Shown: piece after piece, positions 1,327-27,327 of the stretch
Layout of the letters: each line of letters starts with the position of its first letter
How positions within the stretch are numbered: the stretch's first letter is position 1
From: a virus
Reading direction: 5' to 3' (one strand)
Length of the DNA: 33,097 bases
Virus record (IMG/VR): IMGVR_UViG_3300010354_000318
Coordinates: 1 to 33,097 of that record
Notes under the pieces: model-generated
Seen by the model: the letters and a program-made list of their open reading frames with translations, nothing else
The model's database searches: none
Told to the model about the DNA's origin: nothing
Translations under genes and position numbers: made by a program

Positions 1327-3168
1327 TTAAGTTATCGGTCTTGCAATAGTTGTGGAGCTCCCTTGTGGAGCTCCAACTTTTACAGCTGTAGAACTAGAAT
1401 TGTTAACATTCATAACAACTTGAGTGTTTTGTTGTTTCTTGGCAGCATTTACTTCAGCGCTTGAAGTTGATGTTGATTGTCCTGTTATTGGTGCACTTGC
1501 AACTATAGTTCCAGAAGAGCCAGTGTCCGTGTACATGGTAGAATATTTGTCAACTTTAGCAAGTATTTCTGCTCCAATACCTTTGGACAAATCTAATCCT
1601 GCTCCACCAATCACTTGTGTTACAGCTCTATTAGCTTCTGCTTGAGACTTAAAATCCATTCGGCCCTTCAGTCCTTGCTTGACAAACAAAGCAGATATTT
1701 TGGCAGCAATAATAGGATCGTTTGCCATTTCAGGATTCTTAACAAGATCTACGCCTATTTGTTTGCCATAAAATGCGTAGTTCTTTTTTCCTGTAATTTG
1801 AATGAATCCTCTTCCTCTATATTTGTATCCATCTCCAGGTTCATCATTTCCCATCAGCTTACCTACTGGAGACTTAGAACCGTACACTAACTCCGCTAAT
1901 CCTTGTGGATTATTGGTGTATTGCTTTAGATCTTGATCAGATAACCTTGCTACTCTTACAGCAGTAGGAAATACTTTTTTTATACGTTCTACTGAGCTGT
2001 AATTAAGATTTTCATCTTTTGGTTTGAAACCAGATTCTTTTTCTATATTTGCCAATAATGCAGTTCTGACAAATGGATTAGTTATACCTACGTCTTCAAA
2101 AGCTTTTTGAACTATACCCAACATTCCCTGTTTACCAGTAGGTTCTGTTGCTGTAGGAGGTGGTTTAGAAACAGATTCTGCTGGAGGAGCTATATATTGA
2201 GCCTTAGGAATTGGTTTAGCTTCTTCTTTAAAAGGTTCAGCTCGGGCTTGTTGTGTCTGAGGTTGCGCTCGAGTAGGAGCAGGTTCTGAAGTGGCAGGAG
2301 TGGGACTTACAGCTTTAGGCTTTGGTTGTTCCTTTTTTAAATCTTCTACTGTAGGTTCTTTACCTTCCTCTTTAGCTTGCTTTGCTGCTTCTCTATATTC
2401 TATTTTCTTTTCAAAATCTTCTCTTCTTTGCTGTTGTTCTGCAATTTTTGTTTCTTTTTGCTCTTTTAAAGACTGTTTATTATTTTCTAGACTTTTTTCA
2501 AAGTTTTTAATTGTATCACCTTTGAGCCAATCAGGAAGATTTTTCACTCCTTTGATTGCTAGATCAACAAAGAATATTTTTATATCATCAAACAAATTTA
2601 CTAGCGGATCAGCTATAATAAACTTAAAAATATCTTTGAGATCGTCAAATGTTTGCATAAGTTCATTTTTCGCTGATTCAAATGCTTCTGTAATAAAATC
2701 TCTAAAGGCAGATCCTTCTTGAAAAAAATTTACTATTTCTTCACCTATTGATCCCAACATACTCGACAAAATACCAATAGGATCTTTGAAGAAATCAATA
2801 ACTTTGTCTATTATGGAAACACCATAAAGCAAAGCTCCATACAAAGAAGTCATTAATAATAAGTTATTTGATTTCTTCGTTGGTCTTTCTTTTCCTTGTG
2901 TGTCTACAGCTACTGCTTGTTGTTCTTGTATAATTGGTTCAGGAGCAGCATCATTAGTATCATAGACGACATATTGTTTAACTTCTTCTAATGAAGTAAC
3001 TGACGCACCCAGCTTACCAGCAATGTTATAGAGATTGTCAGAAATTTGTGAAAACAAAACAAAATTTTTGTTTTGTAGTTCTAAGGCTTCTTCTTGTTTT
3101 TTAACAAGAAAATTAGAAATGATTCCAAGATTGGAAAATAGTTTTGTTAATTCTTCTGTCTTATTCAT
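1327..3168 (-). CDS. Tail protein with GH19 (chitinase/endolysin-like) peptidoglycan hydrolase domain
   Basis: This 613-aa protein has four parts. Residues 1-70 are an N-terminal module with DNLYNIAGKLGASVTSLEEV. Residues ~101-230 are hydrophobic and amphipathic helices starting with LLLMTSLYGALLYGVSII. Residues ~230-345 are a charged then Pro/Ala/Glu-rich linker. Residues ~346-545 are a GH19 domain. GH19 hallmarks are KESGF with ENLNYS (likely catalytic Glu378 and Glu386), YRGRGFIQITGKKNY and the following NPE and DP. GH19 phage enzymes cut the glycan strand. The C-terminus ends with NVNNSSST. The start overlaps the previous gene's stop (ATGA), so translation is probably coupled. The stop abuts the gp32 stop with no gap. 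Tail membership is inferred from the operon (gp54-gp26-gp51 upstream), the shared ends with the M15 protein and the lack of a lysozyme domain in gp5. A role as part of the tape measure is possible. A free lysis endolysin is less likely because of the long N-terminal region. Confidence 0.8.
   Translation of the reverse strand: MNKTEELTKLFSNLGIISNFLVKKQEEALELQNKNFVLFSQISDNLYNIAGKLGASVTSLEEVKQYVVYDTNDAAPEPIIQEQQAVAVDTQGKERPTKKSNNLLLMTSLYGALLYGVSIIDKVIDFFKDPIGILSSMLGSIGEEIVNFFQEGSAFRDFITEAFESAKNELMQTFDDLKDIFKFIIADPLVNLFDDIKIFFVDLAIKGVKNLPDWLKGDTIKNFEKSLENNKQSLKEQKETKIAEQQQRREDFEKKIEYREAAKQAKEEGKEPTVEDLKKEQPKPKAVSPTPATSEPAPTRAQPQTQQARAEPFKEEAKPIPKAQYIAPPAESVSKPPPTATEPTGKQGMLGIVQKAFEDVGITNPFVRTALLANIEKESGFKPKDENLNYSSVERIKKVFPTAVRVARLSDQDLKQYTNNPQGLAELVYGSKSPVGKLMGNDEPGDGYKYRGRGFIQITGKKNYAFYGKQIGVDLVKNPEMANDPIIAAKISALFVKQGLKGRMDFKSQAEANRAVTQVIGGAGLDLSKGIGAEILAKVDKYSTMYTDTGSSGTIVASAPITGQSTSTSSAEVNAAKKQQNTQVVMNVNNSSSTAVKVGAPQGSSTTIARPIT
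1353..1381 (+). terminator. Rho-independent terminator for gene 32
   Basis: TGGAGCTCC (1353-1361) and GGAGCTCCA (1367-1375) form a nine-pair GC-rich stem with a five-base loop, followed by AC and TTTT (1378-1381). It lies 27 bases past the gp32 stop and so would end rightward transcription. The same bases encode the last residues of the antisense GH19 tail protein (GAPQGSS). In the leftward direction no T-run follows the stem, so it should act on one strand only. The T-tract is short, which limits confidence. Confidence 0.55.
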
Positions 3169-5045
3169 GCGTAACTATAAGAATAATTATCTAACGATCC
3201 TCTGTTTGCTACTGGCGAAGGAATTTTAAATCTAGGTTTTTGATCAGAAGATGATATATTTGATGAACTGTTATCTATGTTAGAAATAGTAGGATTATTT
3301 TGCTGATTGTAACCTGCTTCCACATTCATAGAAGCAGCAACTATCCCTTCACCTATGTTAGGGGATTGTGATGCAGGAGCTACGTAACCACCAGAAGAAG
3401 ACAGTGACTGAGATCCAGAAACACCAGAAGCAATACTAGAAGCAGCTGCTGATGGTTTAGTAATATTTTCTGCAGAAACGTTTGCCAGAGATGGAGTTTT
3501 TGTTTCACCTTCAGCAGGTACTGCTTGTTTGAGTTCACTTTCATTAATAGGTTTACCATCTGAAGGCAAGGTAGCTTTACCCTCATTTGAAACAAGAACT
3601 GCTTGGCCAGGATTTACTGGATTGTCTGGAGTAGACTTTTTAACTTCTGTAGGTTCCACATGCCATGTTTCGGCAGATATTGGTCTATGGAAACCGTACT
3701 TGTCAAATAATCCCATCGCAATAGCTTTATTAGCGTCACCTGAGTTCATATCAAAAGCTAAACCTACTTCATGTTTACTTTTGCCGGGTTTTGCAGCTCT
3801 TGGAGAACCATATTTTTTAAATAATTCTTCCTGTTCTTTAGGATCTCTAAATCCAGAGTTTATTTGAATTTTTTGACCAGTAGCATTAAAATATTCATAA
3901 GCAACTGCTGCAAGTCTTTTCTTAACAGCCTGATCTAAATCATCGAGATTGATACTAGAATCTTTGACATTAACATATTTTTTTAAATCAACATCTAAAG
4001 CAGATTCCGTTTTTCCTGAAACTGGTTCTGTATCTCTAGCTTTAGGCAGTTCCTGATCAGGAACTGCCATAGGTGGATTAATTGATCCTCTTCCTGCACC
4101 TGCTGTACTTGTTCCTGGTGGGATTGGGGTAGGCTCTTCTTTTTTAGATTGTGTTGTAGGAGCTGATTTATAACCTGATACTGAATCAACAAGTTTAGTT
4201 TTTATTTCTTTTACTTTATCTAAACCAAAATCAGGCACAGCGTTTATTAAAGCTATTATACCATCAATGAATTTGTCTTTGACTGTTGAAAGAAAATTTA
4301 CAACTGGATTAACAATATATTCACCAAACAAATCTTTAGCTTGACCAAATTTTTCAGATATGAAATCCTTAGCTGTTTGAAAAATATTGTTTACAGACGC
4401 TCTGAATTCTTTGTCTGTAAAGTATTTGTATATGCCAAATCCAATTGTTCCTATTACAGCAACTGCTAGTCCTATTGGATTAGTAAATAATGTCAACCCT
4501 CTTAGTAAAAAACCTCCAGCTTTTTTTAGAAAGGACATCCCACCAGAAAACACAGTTTTAATAATATTACCAAAAGGTAATTTAAATCCTTTTTTCAAAG
4601 AATCCATCATACTGGTTTCTTTTTTAGTATCTTTTGGTTTTTGATCATCAGCAGGAAGTGCTTGTCTAACTTCCATAGATGCTTCTTCAGAAGCTGCTTG
4701 TTGTTTCTGTCTATCTGTTTGCTGTTGAACAGCCTGTTGTTTTAGAGATTCCTCTACTTCTTTAATTGAAGTAAGCTGAGCTCCAATTGTAGCTGCTATG
4801 TTGTAAATATTGTCTGCCATTTGTGTGACAACAATATTAGTCTTTTTTAATATCTCTACTTGTTCGGTTTGTTTTTGTGAGACTTTCTCAAAAGTTTTTA
4901 CTATAAAAATAGTATCAACAGAAGATTTAGCTTCTTTAGTAACTTCTTCTTTACTTTTATCTTCTTTATTTCCAAAAAACACTGAAGCCATGTCACTTAA
5001 TGACATGGTTTGTTTGTTGTTATCTTTTTTAGATTTCTTAGCCAA
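3165..5045 (-). CDS. Tail protein with Peptidase_M15 (VanY/endolysin-like) domain
   Basis: The 626-aa protein follows the same plan as its downstream neighbour. The N-terminal module contains DNIYNIAATIGAQLTSIKEV (~79-98). A hydrophobic segment spans ~183-208 (TLFTNPIGLAVAVIGTIGFG) and amphipathic helices ~210-290. A Pro/Ser-rich linker comes next, then an M15 peptidase domain at ~350-470. M15 evidence is INSGFRDPKEQEELF, SKHEVGLAFDMN and ETWHVEP, giving zinc ligands His425, Asp432 and His462. Such enzymes cut peptidoglycan stem peptides. The ~155-residue tail is low-complexity and ends with IDNSSSN. The frame starts with TTG at 5045, directly after the gp51 stop, and gives MAKKSKKDNN; ATGs at residues 14 and 19 are alternatives, and none has a strong ribosome site. 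Following gp26/gp51, this is where lambda-like phages place the tape measure, so it may be a tape-measure-type protein carrying a hydrolase. Domain call firm, structural role inferred. Confidence 0.8.
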   Translation of the reverse strand: MAKKSKKDNNKQTMSLSDMASVFFGNKEDKSKEEVTKEAKSSVDTIFIVKTFEKVSQKQTEQVEILKKTNIVVTQMADNIYNIAATIGAQLTSIKEVEESLKQQAVQQQTDRQKQQAASEEASMEVRQALPADDQKPKDTKKETSMMDSLKKGFKLPFGNIIKTVFSGGMSFLKKAGGFLLRGLTLFTNPIGLAVAVIGTIGFGIYKYFTDKEFRASVNNIFQTAKDFISEKFGQAKDLFGEYIVNPVVNFLSTVKDKFIDGIIALINAVPDFGLDKVKEIKTKLVDSVSGYKSAPTTQSKKEEPTPIPPGTSTAGAGRGSINPPMAVPDQELPKARDTEPVSGKTESALDVDLKKYVNVKDSSINLDDLDQAVKKRLAAVAYEYFNATGQKIQINSGFRDPKEQEELFKKYGSPRAAKPGKSKHEVGLAFDMNSGDANKAIAMGLFDKYGFHRPISAETWHVEPTEVKKSTPDNPVNPGQAVLVSNEGKATLPSDGKPINESELKQAVPAEGETKTPSLANVSAENITKPSAAASSIASGVSGSQSLSSSGGYVAPASQSPNIGEGIVAASMNVEAGYNQQNNPTISNIDNSSSNISSSDQKPRFKIPSPVANRGSLDNYSYSYA

Positions 5046-5228
5046 TTAATTTCTACTTCGTAGTCTTTCTTGTTCTTTTTCTAAGTAATCCTTTAACATA
5101 TCAACATAGATGTCTCTTTCAAAAGGATATAAATTTTCAATTTCCTGTATTGAATATTTATGATGCTGAACCATACCAAATATTAACGTGAAATAATTGG
5201 ATAAACTGTTATGGCTCAGCCCAATTGA
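5046..5228 (-). CDS. 51: gp51-like hub chaperone frame, probably translated by -1 frameshift from gp26
   Basis: From the slippery run to the stop, this frame encodes 60 residues: SIGLSHNSLSNYFTLIFG, then MVQHHKYSIQEIENLYPFER, then a helix ending KDYLEKEQERLRSRN. The phrase HHKYSIQEIENLYPFERDIY is typical, as I recall, of the small gp51/tail-assembly-chaperone domain of marine T4-like phages. The only ATG (5172-5174) leaves 42 residues, cuts into the hydrophobic helix and has no ribosome site before it. The frame is -1 relative to gp26 and overlaps its end, and a T-TTT-TTT heptamer sits exactly where a -1 slip would join them. The predicted fusion is 292 aa. In T4, gp26 and gp51 help assemble the baseplate hub; in lambda, the G/GT pair made by -1 frameshifting plays the matching chaperone role. 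Separate low-level translation from an internal start remains possible. Confidence 0.65.
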   Translation of the reverse strand, partial: SIGLSHNSLSNYFTLIFGMVQHHKYSIQEIENLYPFERDIYVDMLKDYLEKEQERLRSRN

Positions 5229-5923
5229 AAAAAATCGTTTAGACTTTGAAGAATAATTTTTCTTTGATTTCCTAAACTATTGGTATAAACAATTTCATGC
5301 TTAAGTTTAGGCATTGTGTTGAAAAATTCTTGAACTTTATTGAAGGAGCTCACATCCATACTAAGAATAAATTCGTCAATTTCTTCTCTTGAATAATTAG
5401 ATACTTCAATAACTTGGGAGTCATGGACTATAGTATCTAAACAATTTCTTAAAATTTCAAAAACTAAATCAGTCTCATTTTCAATCTTCTCGAGACTGTT
5501 AATCATATTCATTTTAGGATATTTTAAATTTAATATAGTATTCTGAGAAACATTAATAGTTTTTTGATGATCTTTGTTGTATTCTATTTCTATACCATCT
5601 AAATCAACTTCAAATTCATATATTTTTTCATCTTCAAGATCCTTATATCTCAGATTTACTATATTATTTACAGACTTAGATCTTAACTTAATGAAAAAAT
5701 ATTCTATGTCGAACGTTGTTAAATCATCTATATCAATTTGATCTAAAGAACAATTTTGCAAAACTTGTTTAACTGCATAAATTATTTCTTTTGGATCTTC
5801 ACTAGATTGTGCAATCAGTAGTATTTTTTCTTCTTTTACTAGAAAAGGTCGATATCTAATTTTTTGTTTAGTACTAGGTATTTCAAGCTCAAATGTAGGA
5901 TGAGATAATTTAGGTAGTGCCAT
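5216..5923 (-). CDS. 26: gp26-like baseplate hub assembly protein (zero-frame product)
   Basis: The 235-aa protein starts MALPKLSHPTFELEIPST and continues RYRPFLVKEEKILLIAQSSE, a pattern characteristic of the T4 gp26 baseplate family in marine T4-like phages (T4 gp26 is about 208 aa). It is mostly acidic, with mixed alpha/beta predicted character and no membrane segment. GGAG lies five bases before the ATG. In T4, gp26 is needed to build the central hub and is thought to act as a tail-assembly chaperone equivalent to lambda gpG. The last codons (NDFFQLG) contain the slippery T-run, so a fraction of ribosomes may continue into gp51. The gene follows gp54 by 11 bases and precedes the M15 and GH19 tail proteins in one leftward operon. 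Identification by pattern and synteny is good; the precise role here is inferred. Confidence 0.85.
   Translation of the reverse strand: MALPKLSHPTFELEIPSTKQKIRYRPFLVKEEKILLIAQSSEDPKEIIYAVKQVLQNCSLDQIDIDDLTTFDIEYFFIKLRSKSVNNIVNLRYKDLEDEKIYEFEVDLDGIEIEYNKDHQKTINVSQNTILNLKYPKMNMINSLEKIENETDLVFEILRNCLDTIVHDSQVIEVSNYSREEIDEFILSMDVSSFNKVQEFFNTMPKLKHEIVYTNSLGNQRKIILQSLNDFFQLG
5228..5234 (-). promoter_or_regulatory. Slippery heptamer T-TTT-TTT for programmed -1 frameshift
   Basis: Read on the minus strand in the gp26 frame, the codons are GAT TTT TTT CAA, so the seven T bases form a perfect X-XXY-YYZ heptamer. A -1 slip leads directly into the gp51 frame. AATTGG (5221-5226) can pair with CCAATT about 20 bases downstream, enclosing a small ATAA/TTAT hairpin. 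That is a possible stimulating structure, although it starts unusually close to the slip site. The gp26 stop TGA is only five codons after the slip begins. A homopolymer indel in the sequence is the main alternative explanation. Confidence 0.6.
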
Positions 5924-5934
5924 GATAACTCCAG

Positions 5935-6759
5935 TTAAAAGCCAAATCCTCCTATAATGGTTTTGGCATTATTAATCACATTCAAAACATCACCAACCCC
6001 TCTTGGTTTTCTGAGTGATGCTAAAGTTTGCAAAGCCGTTCCAGCTTTGACAATTTGTTGTAACCCTGAAAGAGGTTTAGTTTGGCCAGATACAGGTTCT
6101 TTACTATCTGAACTAATTAACACGTGTTGGAAATATGTGAAAGTCATATTCAATCTCATTATTTGATCATTATCACTCCAACTCAAAGATGTATCTGACA
6201 AACCTATTGGAATTGCATCAACTATTTGAGAAGTTAATACTCCATTACCTGCCTCATCAAAAGTTGATATACCAATCTGAGATTTATAATTATCTTTGTA
6301 TTCCACTTCAAATGCTCCCAAACCATTTGAGCTTGAAGAGTTACCATTTATGTATTGATCGCTAGAAACAATTCTATTCATCCATTTATAAAAATATTTG
6401 TATATGTTTCCAGTACCATCTACTAGAAAGGAAATCGTTATGTCATTGAAAATTGGAGCGTAAGGTTTTTTTTCTATCGGACCATACCCATATCTTCTAG
6501 TTTCTGAAGTAGCAAAATTTAGACCTGGAATATTAATTGAGTCAGCATACAGATGAATCACTGAATCTATTCTATCACCTGTCATTATTAAAGGTGGTCT
6601 AAGAGTAACTTCAAATAAATTAGTTCTAGCAAAAGATCTGCTTCTAAATTCAGAAAGAAAATTTCCATACCTACCTGTCGCTTGAGAAGTAGAAGATGGT
6701 TTAAGAGCCGAATATAAAGCTAGCCCTGTTAAAGCAGTATTTAAAAACTTAGCAGCCAT
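5935..6759 (-). CDS. 54: gp54-like baseplate tail-tube initiator
   Basis: This 274-aa protein has the layout of the gp19/gp48/gp54 tail-tube family. A short N-terminal extension is followed by RTNLFEVTLRPP, SINIPGLNF, YGYGPIEKKPYAPIFNDITI and FLVDGTGNIYKYFYKW, the usual beta-strand order and central helix of a tube monomer. The later segment IPIGLSDTSLSWSDNDQIMR matches the second tube-forming strand set. In T4, gp54 sits on gp48 and nucleates polymerisation of the gp19 tube. The start codon shares one base with the upstream gene's stop (TAATG), so translation is probably coupled. The unusual point is strand: gp54 is on the minus strand while gp48, its partner, is on the plus strand. It could instead be another member of the tube family, but the gp26 neighbourhood favours gp54. 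Confidence 0.75.
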   Translation of the reverse strand: MAAKFLNTALTGLALYSALKPSSTSQATGRYGNFLSEFRSRSFARTNLFEVTLRPPLIMTGDRIDSVIHLYADSINIPGLNFATSETRRYGYGPIEKKPYAPIFNDITISFLVDGTGNIYKYFYKWMNRIVSSDQYINGNSSSSNGLGAFEVEYKDNYKSQIGISTFDEAGNGVLTSQIVDAIPIGLSDTSLSWSDNDQIMRLNMTFTYFQHVLISSDSKEPVSGQTKPLSGLQQIVKAGTALQTLASLRKPRGVGDVLNVINNAKTIIGGFGF

Positions 6760-19587: not shown

Positions 19588-22500
19588 ATGGCCTTAGAGA
19601 CCAATCTTAACGCAACTCCATACTGGGATGATTTCAACGAGCAGAAAGATTTCTATAGAATTCTTTTCAGGCCAGGTGTTTCTGTTCAGACAAGAGAACT
19701 TAATCAACTTCAAACAATTCTTCAAAAACAAATAGAACGATTTGGAGATCATGTTTTTAAAAGTGGAACTATTATAAGTGGTTGTAATTTCATCTACAAT
19801 CCTCTTGCTCCTTACGTAAAAATTAAAGATCTTCAAGAAGATGGTCAACCAGTCAATATATCTTCGTACGTCGGTCTTTATATAAAAAATTCTGCTAATC
19901 TTCAAGCTAAAATTTTAAATTTTGAAACAGGATTTGAATCACAAAATCCTGACCTAAACACTTTATATGTTAGTTATATTAATTCAGGAAATACTTTTAA
20001 TCTCACTTCTTTTTCTAACAACGATTTACTAGATGTTTTTAACAAAAACGAACAACTCTATAGTGTATCAGTTGTAAATGGTGGTACAGGGTTTTCCAAT
20101 TCAGACACTCTCCATTTTGTTTCTGCTCTTGATGTTAGGGTAAGTAGTGGTACATTCACTAACGGTGAAATTATTACACAAGCAACAACTGGTGCAAGAC
20201 TTCAGGTTATTGGGATAGCCAACGGCATTAATTCTAATAATAAGATACTTTCTGTAAAGCCTATAAATGCTGAACAATTATCTAACACATCAGCAAATTC
20301 TACATCATGGACAATGTCTTCTGGATATAATATAACTGGAAACACTTCCAGCGCAGTAGCTAATGTTACGTTCTTTGTTGGTGGAAACGCAAATGGTGTA
20401 ATATCCACAGATTCGTTAGGAGTTGTACAAACAATCACACTTTCTTCTGGAGGATCAGGATATACCACAGTTCCTTCAGTTGTAATCAAACCTGCATCGG
20501 CTTCTGCAGGAGTATCTTCTTTAGATCTGACTGCTGTTAAAAATTACGCTCAGATAAGAGTTGCTAACAATTCATTTACTTCACCAGTTGGATTTGGCTA
20601 TACATTTTCTGTAACTGAAGGTATAATTTATCAGAAAGGTATATTTTCTAGAGTATTACCTCAAACAACACTAGTTTCAAAATACTCTTCTACACCTTCA
20701 AATGTGTCTGTTGGATTCACTTCTAATGAATCGATTGTAAAATACACAACAGATTCATCTTTATATGATAATGCTGCTAATACTTACAACGAAACTGCTC
20801 CTGGAGCAGATAGACTAAGAATTAGACCTATACTTTACGTTGTTAATACCGATGTTGGAGCTGCCAACTCAGAATTCCTTCCATTAGTTGAGTTTGTTGA
20901 TGGATTACCATCAAAAGAAAATAGAAATACTGTTTATAATGAAATAGCAAAAGAATATGAGAGAAGAACTTTTGAAACTGCTGGTGATTTTGTAATTGAT
21001 TCTTTTAGAGCTTCTACTAAAGAAATTGTCTCTAATACGACCCATTTTAATGTTGTTATTGATCCTGGTAAGGCTTATATCAGAGGCAAGAGAATTGAAA
21101 CTCTTACTAATATTCCTACGCCTATACAAAAAGGTAATACTGTATTCACCAAATCAAATCAAACAATAACTGCTAATTATGGAAATTATGTAAAGGTAAA
21201 GAATCTAGCAGGATTTTTTGATTTTAAATCAGGTGCTACAATTACACTTTACGATACAGCTAAAAGTTTACTAAGTGGAGTTACAGTAGGTAGTTCAGCA
21301 ACTATAACTCCTGCTGGTAATGCGATTGGCACTGCAAGAATGAGATCTCTCGTATATGAATCAGGTATAAAAGGAACACCAGAAGCTATTTATAGATTAT
21401 ACTTGTTTGATGTAACAATGAATGCTGGAAAATCATTCAGAGATGTCAGAGCTTTGTATTACGATGGATCATACGATGGAATTTGTGATGCTGTAACAGA
21501 AATTGATGGTACTTCAAGTAATACTGTAACATTCTTGTATGATACAGAATCACCAGATATTATATTCAGGACTGGAGTTTCTGCTGCAAAGTCTATTTCT
21601 GATATCACGTATACATATAGAACATCTACTCAAGATCTTACTTTAAATGCTAATGGAACTATTGAAATAACAGCTCCTGTTAGTTATCAATTTCCTTATT
21701 CAGGATCACTTTCATTATCATCTATACAGAAGCAAGATTTCATTATAGCTCCAGTTTCTAATGTTTCTGTTTCAAATGCAGCCGGATCAGTGTCAGGAGG
21801 AACAACTCTAAATTATTTGGTTGGTACTTCAACTAGTTTTACTACTGATTTTAGAGTTGGTGATTATGTAAGAGTTTTAGAAACAGGTGGAAGTAGTACC
21901 ATTGATGTTAGAAGAGTAGAAAACATTGTAAATTCTACTTACATGATTCTAAATGCCAATCTATCATTCACCGATACAAATGCTAATGTAGCTCTGTTTT
22001 TCCCTGCTTATTATCCTATTGATTTAGAAAGAACTGGCAGAACTATAACAACTTCTGCAAATTCTTCTGTTGTTACCATTGATATTGCTAATTCTAGTTT
22101 AGCTGGTACAGCTAACGTGGTAGCAATGTATAATATTCGAATACCTTCTGCTACTCAAATTAACAAAGACTTAAACAGAGATCTTTATGTTAAAATCTAT
22201 ACTGGAAACAATGATACAGTATCCGCAAGTGGAAATAACACTTCTGGACCTTGGAGTTTAGGTATTCCAGATGTATTCAGATTGAAAGCTGTCTATTATG
22301 GAAATACAGCAGCTAATACAGATGTTACAAAATATTTTTACGTCAATTCATATGATGATGGGGATAAAGTAAAAAATGCAGAGCTCCGTTTGATAAAGGG
22401 TGCTAATTTAGCTATATCAAACACACAATGGCTTTTAGCTCAATTTGATGCTTTTGATGTCAATTCATCTGAGGGATTTATTACAATCAATTCATATAAT

Positions 22501-24381
22501 GATTTAATTAATGATTCAACTGGTTACAGCAACAACACTTATATTAACACACTAGAAGTTCCTGAATTACTAACTTCAGATGGTAGATATTATGATGTAA
22601 GAGATTGTTTTGATTTTAGACCTTTTACAACAAATACAGCTTCATATTCTACAAGTGTTGCTTCAGCAACAGTAAATCCATCCGCTACAGTAACAATCAA
22701 TACTGATGAAAAATATTTTCCTGTACCTGATTCAGAAATTACATTTGATATTGATTTTTATGTTCCAAGAATAGATTCTGTTTCTATTAATAGAAACAAT
22801 GACTTGTTAGTTTCTATTGGAACACCAGATGTTACTAATTTAAAGGCACCGAATAAACCAGCCGATTCTTTGCTAGTAACAAACTTATTCATTCCTCCAT
22901 ATCCTTCTTTACCTTATAGTTTTTCTAATACTACTTTTAGTATTAATAATAAAAGGGTAGGTAATGATTCTTCTATAGTTAATGTTAGAGAAGACAAATA
23001 TAAAGTTAAAACTATCTCTAGTACTTCAGAAAGAAGATCGTCACCTAGAGCTTATACTATGTCAAGTATAAGCAAACTTGAGCAAAGAATTGTTGCTATT
23101 GAAAAAGAAATATTACTTTCAAAATTAGAAAGATCAATAATTGACAAAACTATTCCAAGTTCTAATGATCCAGCTAAGGATAGATTTAAAAATGGATTTT
23201 TAGTAGATAGTTTCAATGATTATAATGTTGTAGATCTTAAAAATGTAGAAAATTCATGTTTTATTGATACAGAAAAAGGTGAACTTCAACCACTTAAATT
23301 TAACTACAATTTAGAAAGTATTTTCGATAGATCACACTCAAATACAAGTGTTGCTATTACTGAAGATAATCAGTTGATGCTTCCTTACACAGAAGTAACA
23401 TTAATCAAACAACTCAACGCTTCTAAACCAAAAACAGTCACATATCAATCAGTAAGTAGTGTTCCTGAAGTCACTGTTGTCACAGAGCCTTCTAGTGGTG
23501 GAGGTTATGCAAGACCTCAAATAAATGGACCAAGTGAAATTTATGAAAATGATTTGTGGCAGGTTGTTGTTACTAATGCACAACCTGGAGAATCTATAAC
23601 TGTTGTAGGATCAGGACTAGCAGCAGCTGTGAATAGAGTTTTCTATGCTGATGCAGCTGGTACATGGAGAGAGGTTGATACTTGGGTATATGGAATAGGA
23701 ACATTCGGATACACTTTAACTTTTGGAACGTCTGGAGCTGTTTTAACATATTCTGTTAACGTGAAAAGCAAACAAGATCTTCCTAAAAAGGATACAGATG
23801 TTGATGGAGGAGGTGGAGGTGGATCTTCCTCATCAAATGATGGAGATGGATCCGGAAAAACATTTGTTCTTGATACATCTGTTGTGACAGCATGTACTGT
23901 TACTGTTACTTCTAATGTAACTACAGCAACCAATGTAATAGATTTTGTAGAACTTGGATCAGCAAGTTTACTATCTACCACTGTTACAGGACCAATAGGA
24001 GTATTTTCTTTGATTGGAGCTTTAGGATCAGTTACTGTATCATCAATAACTGTTGGAGGTTTTGGTCCTGGTGGTACTGGAGCTACATCAGGAGATAATT
24101 TTGTTGATGCAGCTTCCAGCCAAGGAAATGATACAGGTGTAAGTGGTGTAGATTCAACTAGTGAAACTGGTGATGGAAATATAGGTATGAATGGAGACGG
24201 TACAGCTGTTGGTGAGTCAGTACTGATTGATGGTGAAGTAATTACTAACTCTGGAGATTTAGGTGGTTATGGTGGAGGAAATGATGGAGGAAGTGGTGGG
24301 GGAGGTGGTGAAATTGGTAGTGATGATGTATTCGGAGGAGATGATGAAGGTGAGTGGGAAAGTTATTATATAACAGCTTAA
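19588..24381 (+). CDS. DUF4815-type baseplate/fibre structural protein with Gly-rich and acidic C-terminus
   Basis: The 1597-aa protein begins with TPYWDDFNEQKDFYRILFRP and GVSVQTRELNQLQTILQKQI, the hallmark opening of DUF4815-family virion proteins in marine T4-like phages. A good ribosome site (AAGAGGA) precedes the ATG. The first ~500 residues continue the family pattern (KEYERRTFETAGDFVIDSFR, VIDPGKAYIRGKRIET). A VGTSTSFTTDF module lies at ~740-810, and a probable coiled coil at ~1155-1200 (SISKLEQRIVAIEKEILLSK). From ~1300 a different texture begins: an Ig-like segment (INGPSEIYENDLWQVVVTNA), a six-glycine linker at ~1407, a Val/Thr-rich domain and an acidic Gly/Asp-rich end. The role is probably like T4 gp10, linking wedge to fibre, but that is inferred from position after gp8. 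The usual C-terminal region of this family appears to have been split into the next two genes. Confidence 0.8.
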   Translation: MALETNLNATPYWDDFNEQKDFYRILFRPGVSVQTRELNQLQTILQKQIERFGDHVFKSGTIISGCNFIYNPLAPYVKIKDLQEDGQPVNISSYVGLYIKNSANLQAKILNFETGFESQNPDLNTLYVSYINSGNTFNLTSFSNNDLLDVFNKNEQLYSVSVVNGGTGFSNSDTLHFVSALDVRVSSGTFTNGEIITQATTGARLQVIGIANGINSNNKILSVKPINAEQLSNTSANSTSWTMSSGYNITGNTSSAVANVTFFVGGNANGVISTDSLGVVQTITLSSGGSGYTTVPSVVIKPASASAGVSSLDLTAVKNYAQIRVANNSFTSPVGFGYTFSVTEGIIYQKGIFSRVLPQTTLVSKYSSTPSNVSVGFTSNESIVKYTTDSSLYDNAANTYNETAPGADRLRIRPILYVVNTDVGAANSEFLPLVEFVDGLPSKENRNTVYNEIAKEYERRTFETAGDFVIDSFRASTKEIVSNTTHFNVVIDPGKAYIRGKRIETLTNIPTPIQKGNTVFTKSNQTITANYGNYVKVKNLAGFFDFKSGATITLYDTAKSLLSGVTVGSSATITPAGNAIGTARMRSLVYESGIKGTPEAIYRLYLFDVTMNAGKSFRDVRALYYDGSYDGICDAVTEIDGTSSNTVTFLYDTESPDIIFRTGVSAAKSISDITYTYRTSTQDLTLNANGTIEITAPVSYQFPYSGSLSLSSIQKQDFIIAPVSNVSVSNAAGSVSGGTTLNYLVGTSTSFTTDFRVGDYVRVLETGGSSTIDVRRVENIVNSTYMILNANLSFTDTNANVALFFPAYYPIDLERTGRTITTSANSSVVTIDIANSSLAGTANVVAMYNIRIPSATQINKDLNRDLYVKIYTGNNDTVSASGNNTSGPWSLGIPDVFRLKAVYYGNTAANTDVTKYFYVNSYDDGDKVKNAELRLIKGANLAISNTQWLLAQFDAFDVNSSEGFITINSYNDLINDSTGYSNNTYINTLEVPELLTSDGRYYDVRDCFDFRPFTTNTASYSTSVASATVNPSATVTINTDEKYFPVPDSEITFDIDFYVPRIDSVSINRNNDLLVSIGTPDVTNLKAPNKPADSLLVTNLFIPPYPSLPYSFSNTTFSINNKRVGNDSSIVNVREDKYKVKTISSTSERRSSPRAYTMSSISKLEQRIVAIEKEILLSKLERSIIDKTIPSSNDPAKDRFKNGFLVDSFNDYNVVDLKNVENSCFIDTEKGELQPLKFNYNLESIFDRSHSNTSVAITEDNQLMLPYTEVTLIKQLNASKPKTVTYQSVSSVPEVTVVTEPSSGGGYARPQINGPSEIYENDLWQVVVTNAQPGESITVVGSGLAAAVNRVFYADAAGTWREVDTWVYGIGTFGYTLTFGTSGAVLTYSVNVKSKQDLPKKDTDVDGGGGGGSSSSNDGDGSGKTFVLDTSVVTACTVTVTSNVTTATNVIDFVELGSASLLSTTVTGPIGVFSLIGALGSVTVSSITVGGFGPGGTGATSGDNFVDAASSQGNDTGVSGVDSTSETGDGNIGMNGDGTAVGESVLIDGEVITNSGDLGGYGGGNDGGSGGGGGEIGSDDVFGGDDEGEWESYYITA

Positions 24382-24387
24382 TTAAAC

Positions 24388-24395
24388 AATAAATA
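24388..24395 (+). promoter_or_regulatory. Candidate late promoter before the 115-aa gene
   Basis: AATAAATA lies in the 19-base gap between the DUF4815-type gene and the next ATG. T4 late spacing would put the transcript start at 24401, exactly the A of the ATG, and no ribosome site is visible before that ATG. This is the same arrangement as at gp4. It is non-coding sequence, which favours a real signal, but the motif is simple and the genome is AT-rich. Confidence 0.4.
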
Positions 24396-24400
24396 ATTCA

Positions 24401-24748
24401 ATGAAAACAAGAATTTTTAAAGAACGAGATTTAACTTTTGAAGTGTTTGGTCTTAGACCACTTTCAAGGTATTATCTTTATGTAAATAGATCTCAATATG
24501 CTTCTAGAACTAAACAGTTTGGAAAAAAACTTGGAGATCCTTTAGTCACTGATGAAGACGGAAAAATAAAAATAGTTTTTTATATGGATTCTTTTATACC
24601 TTCTGATACACCCAAAGCAATGTCAGCCAAAGCAAATTATTTAAAAGCTACACCATTGGAATTGGTTTTGACTGAATTAAATCAAACAACATTAGTTCAA
24701 AATTTTGAAAATTCATCAGTTTCTTATGCAAAAACTACGCTCTTCTAA
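24401..24748 (+). CDS. Small fibre-module protein, likely a detached DUF4815-type domain
   Basis: The 115-aa protein has a single compact domain: FEVFGLRPLSRYYLYVNRS, DPLVTDEDGKIKIVFYMDS, FIPSDTP and a Thr/Asn-rich end. The 'GLRP..RYY' opening followed by 'PLVTDEDGKI..VFY' closely resembles the hinge-like domain that, as I recall, lies inside the long DUF4815 proteins of cyanophages, just before their 'TSIDLFF' domain. Here it stands as its own gene between the DUF4815-type gene and the 855-aa gene that carries the TSIDLYF segment. No ribosome site precedes the ATG. The reading frame differs from both neighbours, so it is a true separate gene and not a broken end. It would be expected to assemble with those two proteins in the virion. 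Confidence 0.7.
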   Translation: MKTRIFKERDLTFEVFGLRPLSRYYLYVNRSQYASRTKQFGKKLGDPLVTDEDGKIKIVFYMDSFIPSDTPKAMSAKANYLKATPLELVLTELNQTTLVQNFENSSVSYAKTTLF

Positions 24749-24759
24749 TCAGGGTTGAT

Positions 24760-27327
24760 ATGCCATTTTTTACTAAAGCCCAATCATTCTTTTTAGATCC
24801 TGAAATATTTCAAAATGCAAGTACAGTTTTTGTTACTAGTATTGATCTTTATTTTAAATATAAACCAGTTTTAGGACAAGGTTCATCTGGTAAATATGCT
24901 CCTGGTGTATCTATGAGTATATGTCCTATGAAAGAAGGCAAGCCCGTTGTAGATTTAGCAAGTTCACTAGGTATAGCTAGAAATGAATATGGAACTATTG
25001 CAACTACAACCGATGCTTCTTACTCAACTAATTTTAAATTTAGGTATCCAATTCCACTACAAACTGGAAATGAATACGCATTTTTAATTGGTTTTGATGA
25101 TCCTGAGTTTCAATTATGGACTAATAGATCTGGAGAGGAAGATATTTCATCTGGCCAAACAGCTAAAAACTCTTCAGGTAAAACAGATGGAAATCTTTTT
25201 GATATTACAAATGGAAATGTAATAACTCCTTTAATTGATACTGATTTAAAATTTGCAATCAAATTTGCCAAATTTACTTCTACTTCTAAATCATTTAGAG
25301 TAGTTAACGAAGCATACGAATTTATTAAAATCTCATCCGGATCTCTGAATGGATCTTTTATTGGTGGCGAATATGTTTATCAACAGCAAGCGAACGCAAC
25401 GGGAACAGTAACTGTTTCATCTGGAAGTGCTAATGTAACAGGCTCAGGAACTGACTTTGGTAATACGACTTCTTCATCCTTCACAGACAAGATATCAAAC
25501 AACGATTTAATTTTGGTAGCAAACAGTTCTTCATCTCAAATAAGAAGAGTCAATGTTGTCACTAATACAACGTTTTTAAATACAACTAGTACTTTTGCTA
25601 CTAGTATGAGTGGTGTAAACATAAGAACATTTGAAAAAGGATATCTATCAGTAAACACTACAAGTTATATTGTTACTGGAACTAATACAGCTTTCGATAG
25701 TGTTCTTTCTATTGGTGATCATATAGTCTTAACAGATGGAACAGATGGTAATACTGTTGTTAGACAAGTTACCTACGTTACAAATTCATCAAATATAACT
25801 GTTGATGTTATTCCTCCATTCTCTAATGACTCAGTAGGGTATTTTAAATCAGTAGTAGGTAAAGTAGATAAGTTTACCAATTATAAAGATATGCTCGTTC
25901 TTTATGAATCATCGGCTAACAGTACACTATATTTTACAAATAATAGAATTCTTAAAGGCATAGATTCAACTGCTAATGCTGTTAGTTATTCATTAATAGA
26001 TGTATCACTAGCTAAGTATACACCAAGATATAGAGTGATTACTCCAGCAGGTACAAGGTTTAACCAATATATTAATATTGCTAATTCTTCTTATGCAACA
26101 ACTGCTGGTAAAAATAAACAAGTTTTTAATAATGTTTCTAACTTAATTGATAACTATGCTGCTGTTATAGCTTCAAGATCCAAAGAAGTAACAAATCCTT
26201 CTAACTTATTTGCAAATTCTAAAAGTTTACAAGCAAATTTAGAATTTATTACAGAAAACGATTACACTTCACCTTTTGTATTAGAAAAGAACTTAGATTT
26301 TAATACGGAAGAATTTTTAATTAATAATGACACATCTAGTGAAACATATGGTAACAATAGATTTGCTACAGCGACGTTCAATTCAAACACTGATGTAGCA
26401 AGTACTAATAATTTCATTACTATATCTTCTAACCAGTTTGTAAACAATGATGTTTTAAGATATATTGTCAGTCCAGGAAATACTGTTGTTACAGGTTTAA
26501 CAAACAATCAAAGTTATTTTGTAGTATCAGCTAATTCTACTGGTGTTAAGTTAGCAAGTACTTTAAGTGGAGTTGAAATTGATATTACAGCTACAGGTAC
26601 TAGCGAAACTGGTCATACTTTAAAAAGAGATGGGATTGCTTTTTCAAAATATGTTTCTAAACAAGTAATTTTAGACGTTGACCAAATAGCAGAAGACTTA
26701 ATTGTTTACATGACAGCATTTAAACCAAGCTCAACTGATATTGAAGTTTATGCTAAATTAATCAGTGAAGATGATGGTGAGTCATTCAACACAAAAAATT
26801 GGTCCAAATTAACTCTTGATGTTCCTACTGGATCAAAAGTTGTGAGTCTTGACTCTAATCCAAATGATTTTGTTGAACTCAAATATGTACTCCCTTCGTC
26901 TCACCCAGGTACGGAAGTAACTTCTGGAACGTTTCAAACAACTCTTTCTTCAGTAGTAGTTACTGGAAGTTATTCTACTGTGAATACTGATATAATAGCT
27001 GGAGATTTGGTAAAAGTTTATAATCCTACTTTTCCTGAAACATTTTTTATAGATACAGTAACTTCTTCAAATACAACTACATTTTCAGTGTCTAAAGCAG
27101 TTTCTAATAGTAGTTTGGTAAGTTTAGGATTAAAGGTTGATAAAATAACAGACAAAAATTCGGCTTTCTTGAATAATCAGAATTTTAATATTGTTAGATA
27201 CTTTAATAGATCAATGGCAAAATATGATGGATTCAAAACGTTTGCTATAAAGATAGTATTAAAGTCTGATAATTATTTTCTAGTTCCTAGAGTTGCTGAA
27301 TATAGAGCAATTGCAGTGTCAGCATAA
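24760..27327 (+). CDS. Virion structural protein, probable C-terminal partner of the DUF4815-type protein
   Basis: The 855-aa protein opens with KAQSFFLDPEIFQNASTVFV and TSIDLYFKYKPVLG, then FRYPIPLQTGNEYAFLIGFD. In cyanophage DUF4815-type proteins this block normally follows the GLRP hinge within one chain. Residues ~200-370 contain two VxGTxTxF modules (NVTGSGTDFGNTT; YIVTGTNTAFDSVL), each followed by 'RxV..VTN(T/S)' turns. The C-terminal third has KYVSKQVILDVDQIAEDLIV, YMTAFKPSSTDIEVYAKLIS and an ending with KTFAIKIVLKSD, also typical of that family. A possible ribosome site (CAGGG) precedes the ATG. Its stop overlaps the next start (TAATG). It is probably a baseplate-periphery or fibre-attachment protein; no enzyme motif is visible. 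Confidence 0.72.
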   Translation: MPFFTKAQSFFLDPEIFQNASTVFVTSIDLYFKYKPVLGQGSSGKYAPGVSMSICPMKEGKPVVDLASSLGIARNEYGTIATTTDASYSTNFKFRYPIPLQTGNEYAFLIGFDDPEFQLWTNRSGEEDISSGQTAKNSSGKTDGNLFDITNGNVITPLIDTDLKFAIKFAKFTSTSKSFRVVNEAYEFIKISSGSLNGSFIGGEYVYQQQANATGTVTVSSGSANVTGSGTDFGNTTSSSFTDKISNNDLILVANSSSSQIRRVNVVTNTTFLNTTSTFATSMSGVNIRTFEKGYLSVNTTSYIVTGTNTAFDSVLSIGDHIVLTDGTDGNTVVRQVTYVTNSSNITVDVIPPFSNDSVGYFKSVVGKVDKFTNYKDMLVLYESSANSTLYFTNNRILKGIDSTANAVSYSLIDVSLAKYTPRYRVITPAGTRFNQYINIANSSYATTAGKNKQVFNNVSNLIDNYAAVIASRSKEVTNPSNLFANSKSLQANLEFITENDYTSPFVLEKNLDFNTEEFLINNDTSSETYGNNRFATATFNSNTDVASTNNFITISSNQFVNNDVLRYIVSPGNTVVTGLTNNQSYFVVSANSTGVKLASTLSGVEIDITATGTSETGHTLKRDGIAFSKYVSKQVILDVDQIAEDLIVYMTAFKPSSTDIEVYAKLISEDDGESFNTKNWSKLTLDVPTGSKVVSLDSNPNDFVELKYVLPSSHPGTEVTSGTFQTTLSSVVVTGSYSTVNTDIIAGDLVKVYNPTFPETFFIDTVTSSNTTTFSVSKAVSNSSLVSLGLKVDKITDKNSAFLNNQNFNIVRYFNRSMAKYDGFKTFAIKIVLKSDNYFLVPRVAEYRAIAVSA

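Follow-up and report, generated by a model that had tools for sequence, protein, structure and literature searches.

How is the gp51-like domain expressed in a T4-like virus whose genome seems to offer that domain no start of its own? This question is raised by a locus in a 33,097-nucleotide stretch of DNA (hereafter, the window; IMG/VR record IMGVR_UViG_3300010354_000318) from an uncultivated T4-like virus of bacteria. All parts of the locus are on the minus strand (Table 1). A preliminary description, made from the sequence of the window, had proposed that a programmed −1 frameshift joins gp26 and gp51. As detailed below, comparative analysis supports this proposal through conservation of the slippery heptamer, the presence of the gp51 domain in the −1 phase, and the lack of a gp51 start equipped with a Shine-Dalgarno (SD) site.

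Organization of the gp26-gp51 locus

In profile searches, the gp26-like product matched phrog_150, "baseplate hub" (4.5e-59), and Pfam T4_baseplate/PF12322 (5e-53). The window record, which is a fragment, contains only one gp26-like gene. Its 3' end reads ...AAC GAT TTT TTT CAA TTG GGC TGA; the heptamer seen by the preliminary description in GAT TTT TTT CAA is read directly at 5234-5228, and the short gene thus has, close to its 3' end, a frame-0 sequence of the X_XXY_YYZ form. The −1 frame remains open beyond the gp26 stop for exactly 60 codons, the length given earlier, and encodes a conserved C-terminal domain that matches phrog_634, "baseplate hub assembly catalyst" (2.8e-23). Joining 232 residues of gp26 to these 60 gives the 292-aa fusion that had been predicted. 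The phrog_150 profile itself runs on into the gp51 domain, its positions 245-277 giving a weak match to the −1 product (E 0.014). Both domains of the window are homologous to the T4 gp26 and gp51 families (phrog_150, PF12322 and phrog_634), and the T4 proteins match the same phrog models.

Table 1. Features of the gp26-gp51 locus, in coordinates of the window
Feature	Position	Strand	Remarks
gp26-like gene, short tail assembly chaperone (TAC-N)	5216..5923	minus	235 aa; ATG start and SD-like site
Slippery heptamer T_TTT_TTT	5228..5234	minus	GAT TTT TTT in frame 0; codon position shared by 149/149 sites
Spacer between heptamer and stem, 7 nt	5221..5227	minus	
Stem, 5' arm (GCUGAGCCA)	5212..5220	minus	Reaches 5210 in the window; covariation, fold z −4.27
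gp26 frame-0 stop TGA	5216..5218	minus	Shortly past the heptamer
Stem, 3' arm (UGGUUCAGC)	5165..5173	minus	Reaches 5175 in the window; contains the −1 frame ATG 5174-5172
−1 extension, gp51-like domain (TAC-C)	5046..5228	minus	60 codons (5228-5049) and stop TAA (5048-5046)
Predicted fusion, junction-spanning peptide			...FFRISMFYNNLENYYR
Candidate tape measure gene	3165..5045	minus	626 aa; begins at a TTG that directly adjoins the gp51 stop; weak matches to tape-measure families (best 5.7e-11) and an M15 (VanY) peptidase domain

The locus is flanked upstream by a tail tube-family gene (5935-6759; 9.8e-35) and downstream by the candidate tape measure gene. No clear SD sequence was found at the TTG start of the latter. 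Only frameshifted ribosomes would terminate at that start, which raises the possibility that frameshifting and translation of this gene are coupled. The tape-measure candidate adjoins a gene (1327-3168, minus strand) for a protein of 613 aa that carries a glycoside hydrolase 19 (chitinase/lysozyme-like) domain. Elsewhere in the window (19588-27327, plus strand), two large proteins (1597 and 855 aa) each match a different part of phrog_358, a 2056-position family of unknown function; they are separated by a 115-aa open reading frame that has no family match, and may represent a split gene.

The AlphaFold2 model of gp26 is of high confidence (pLDDT 89.5) and agrees well with predictions for other T4-like gp26 proteins. 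A Foldseek search of the PDB with this model returned no significant match, and no related PDB sequence was found either; the highest probability among the matches listed, 0.47, was that of the HK97 tail assembly chaperone gp13 (2ob9), which was not significant (E = 1.8).

Conservation of the slippery site

To the window were added eight named phages (Mosig, S-SM2, S-WAM1, S-PRM1, Sf-CH1b, DLP_6, Melnitz-1, and S-PM2), 80 IMG/VR contigs found with gp26, and 60 new loci found independently with the gp51 domain, for a total of 149 sites. The last belong to a second set of 80 loci, obtained by searching with the gp51 domain alone (a narrow gp51 alignment), of which 60 were absent from the first set. 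The sequence T TTT TTY was present at the same Phe-Phe codon pair, and in register, at all 149 sites. In the first set it was found at the same codon in 89/89 sequences (48 T_TTT_TTT and 41 T_TTT_TTC), and the second, independent set had it in register at 80/80 loci. In both sets, the gp51 domain always comes next in the −1 phase, and a frame-0 stop follows within about 2-10 codons. A heptamer at the same codon, for which the preliminary description had proposed to look in relatives, was thus encountered without exception among cyanophage-like T4 relatives, and it holds in most of the distant ones.

Codon usage around the site is unusual. In the 89 sequences, the codon leading into the heptamer specifies D, S, T, N, A, or G but ends in T every time, and TTT invariably serves as the first Phe codon. 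Phe-Phe pairs at other places in these genes provide an internal control: they are mostly TTC TTT (49/93), and a T precedes only 13 of the 93. Elsewhere in gp26, 20,510 codon positions yielded just two in-frame T_TTT_TTY heptamers. Since it is found at the same codon and in the same register in 149/149 sites, the conservation of the heptamer is beyond chance. One of the two other occurrences, a T_TTT_TTC near position 5699 (minus strand; about codon 75), lies in the gp26 gene of the window itself; the −1 frame that follows it ends almost immediately.

Candidate stimulatory elements

When −1 programmed ribosomal frameshifting is stimulated, a downstream structure is expected some 5-9 nt after the heptamer. 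The window contains one: a 9-bp stem, pairing 5220-5212 with 5173-5165, which begins 7 nt past the heptamer and covaries in the window's group. An 86-nt segment around the site has a folding energy of −21.3 kcal/mol, and none of the shuffled sequences equals it. The stem was identified from single folds and then tested by pair counting; RNAalifold, run over all sequences, gave no consensus structure because the loop varies. In 47 T7-type sequences, 89.8% of cells were paired, versus 23-38% when the stem was slid, and double-change cells numbered 22, against 5.4 in the shuffled sets; in several of the sequences, for example, U-A stands in for A-U. Pairing reached 89.3% of cells in another 51 T7 sequences, compared to a shuffle mean of 87.6 and a maximum of 88.9; this out-of-sample excess over column shuffles is slight, since the arms are nearly invariant and are also coding. 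The stem found no support in 39 T6C-type sequences, where 53.6% pairing was within the range of shuffles.

Most relatives outside the window's group have no stem and instead carry an SD-like element upstream of the heptamer, while one clade has both. The element (GAG GGN or GAA GGN) ends 7-9 nt ahead of the heptamer in T6C-type sequences, is found in most T6C relatives, and has a duplex energy of −7.0 kcal/mol, versus −5.0 in synonymous controls (sd 0.2). It is absent from the window, where the best upstream duplex is +0.3 kcal/mol. Across all sequences, the SD-like and stem types are anticorrelated (Fisher p 5e-5), but the states track clades, and independent-pair tests gave no information. 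We therefore make no claim of functional compensation. The E. coli dnaX frameshift site combines a slippery heptamer, an upstream SD-like element, and a downstream stem, as does the clade with both elements; dnaX is an unrelated gene, and its heptamer is A-rich.

Distant relatives and phage T4

Among distant phages, T_TTT_TTY is also found in VH7D, vB_VmeM-32, AsFcp_4, LPCS28, Moby, and phiM12, where the gp26 stop and a gp51-like −1 frame come after it; in RL2RES and phiM9 the heptamer is T_TTT_TTG. A TGATG stop-start overlap is additionally present in Moby, RL2RES, and phiM9. Relatives with an independent, SD-equipped gp51 start and no heptamer were not encountered among close relatives; the heptamer is missing only from two distant Vibrio phages, K476 and D493. 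They have a TAATG stop-start overlap instead, which is possibly an alternative route to expression of the gp51 domain.

In T4 and the window, the domains are homologous and the arrangement differs. T4 gene 26 ends in GAG TTC TTT GAG TTA CTA TAA; the Phe-Phe pair is kept, as TTC TTT, and there is no heptamer. Gene 51 is a separate gene, divergently oriented from gene 26, and its product matches phrog_150 over positions 3-248 and phrog_634 over 147-246. By these profile matches, T4 gp51 is a gp26-like domain plus a gp51 domain, i.e., the long form encoded as a gene of its own, and the short and long forms of T4 come from two genes. Duplication of the T4 pair from a frameshifting ancestor was considered using a tree that included T4 and distant phages, and was set aside: gp26 and gp51 form long branches in that tree, and its topology is untrustworthy.

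Other routes to the gp51 domain

A fusion could also be made by RNA polymerase, were it to slip on the T run and insert a base, with the long product then translated from altered mRNA. Homopolymer slippage is known in bacteria, and the window has a run of seven Ts and a few relatives have eight. Many sites, however, have only six Ts followed by C (41/89 in the first set, 9/80 in the second), which is short for the polymerase, while the codon phase, the stem at ribosome spacing, and the SD-like elements are conserved. Transcriptional slippage thus fits the T6C sites poorly and is conceivable for T7 and T8 runs; overall we consider it very unlikely.

Even less probable is that gp51 is a separate small protein, made from an internal start or by termination-reinitiation at ATG 5174 or at a non-standard CTG (5219) that overlaps the gp26 stop. 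Many annotators call gp51 as its own gene, and TAATG or TGATG overlaps do occur in a few distant relatives. Yet the window has a single ATG (5174-5172) in the −1 frame upstream of the conserved domain core; it has no SD-like site, which was sought there, and as residue 19 it falls within the first helix predicted for the domain (residues 9-23), so that a start at this codon would cut the first conserved helix short. The preliminary description had it that the helix begins before the sole ATG and that this ATG lacks a ribosome site, and was right on both counts. In the first set, an ATG, GTG, or TTG with an SD-like sequence upstream of the gp51 core was found at only 5/89 loci, versus 65/89 for the start of gp26 itself, and 15/89 loci have no ATG at all in the −1 frame ahead of the core. 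A separate gp51 would also leave the invariant heptamer unexplained, and the long form of T4 is a physical fusion of both domains. Named phage records treat the domain unevenly: it is left unannotated in seven and has doubtful starts in others, and none of the annotated phage records examined has a joined (frameshifted) CDS for gp51 at the site.

Finally, a single extra T would fuse the two frames of the window, but a T lost in assembly or by homopolymer sequencing error from a true in-frame fusion, an error the preliminary description had considered, cannot account for the site and has a negligible probability, because every one of the 149 sites has the same −1 register, whether the run is T6C, T7, or T8, and finished phage genomes are included.

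Discussion

The gp26-gp51 locus of the window very probably uses programmed −1 ribosomal frameshifting to make, besides the tail assembly chaperone gp26 (TAC-N), a longer and less abundant version of it, TAC-NC, in the manner of lambda G/GT. From the heptamer, the open −1 frame, the domain homologies, the in-register conservation among close relatives, the covarying stem, and the absence of an SD-equipped start, all of which are observed, we infer the slippage, the ribosome as its place, its rate, and its role in assembly. Most ribosomes would read gp26 to its own stop and produce TAC-N. A minority would slip back by one base on the heptamer, with the P- and A-site Phe tRNAs re-pairing on TTT TTT, bypass the gp26 stop, and append the 60-residue gp51 domain to give TAC-NC. 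In this phage the downstream hairpin is the likely stimulator; in many relatives an SD-like element would act in its place or alongside it. If the two forms work like lambda gpG/gpGT, TAC-N would coat the tape measure and TAC-NC would recruit tail tube subunits. A chaperone role is suggested because lambda gpG/gpGT act in this way (PMC5009743) and T4 gp26 and gp51 are hub-assembly chaperones (PMC3004832).

The two systems share gene order and logic: in lambda, and by prediction in the window, a short chaperone gene has a −1 slip near its end that yields a longer form, and the tape measure gene (a candidate in the window) comes next. They show no evident sequence similarity, and lambda has its own heptamer in place of the T run. 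The abstract of the 2022 study by Vladimirov, Gautam, and Davidson reportedly states that frameshifting is conserved in several T4-like groups and that T4 uses genes 26 and 51.

Atkins et al. (2016, PMC5009743) describe the G-T frameshift as conserved across the long-tailed phages, "except T4". Passages in later papers that cite Vladimirov, Gautam, and Davidson (2022, Virology 566:9) speak of separate short and long chaperone genes in T4-like phages (PMC10885494) and of poly-T −1 frameshift signals in their TAC-N genes (PMC12846349). As far as these passages describe it, that system involves the same gp26/gp51 family genes and a poly-T −1 signal at the end of TAC-N, and the window is an uncultivated member. 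The TAC of Pseudomonas phage Adele, from another phage family, also has a conserved −1 frameshift at the end of TAC-N, at a different T-rich motif, GTTTTT (PMC12846349). The suggestion that a frameshift link would tie the T4-like and lambda systems together therefore stands as to the link and not as to priority: going by the cited accounts, both T4-like chaperone frameshifting and the two-gene solution of T4 were published in 2022, and we therefore count this locus as a further case of a known type. The anatomy of the stimulators appears to be new detail; a limited literature search, which included papers citing the 2022 study, turned up no earlier description of either the stem or the clade-specific SD-like element.

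We moderately favor a view in which one slippery codon pair is kept while the stimulator differs by clade, being a stem in the window's uncultivated clade, an SD-like element in cyanophages, or both. The same ratio of short to long forms may then be set by interchangeable RNA signals, all of which are dispensed with where T4 has two genes.

Frameshifting would explain the seeming lack of a gp51 start in marine T4-like phage genomes and provides a rule for annotating gp51: T TTT TTY, then −1. It supports a two-length chaperone scheme common to lambda and T4-like tails, to which T4 is the exception, and the clade-specific stimulators offer a natural series for asking what sets the short-to-long ratio.
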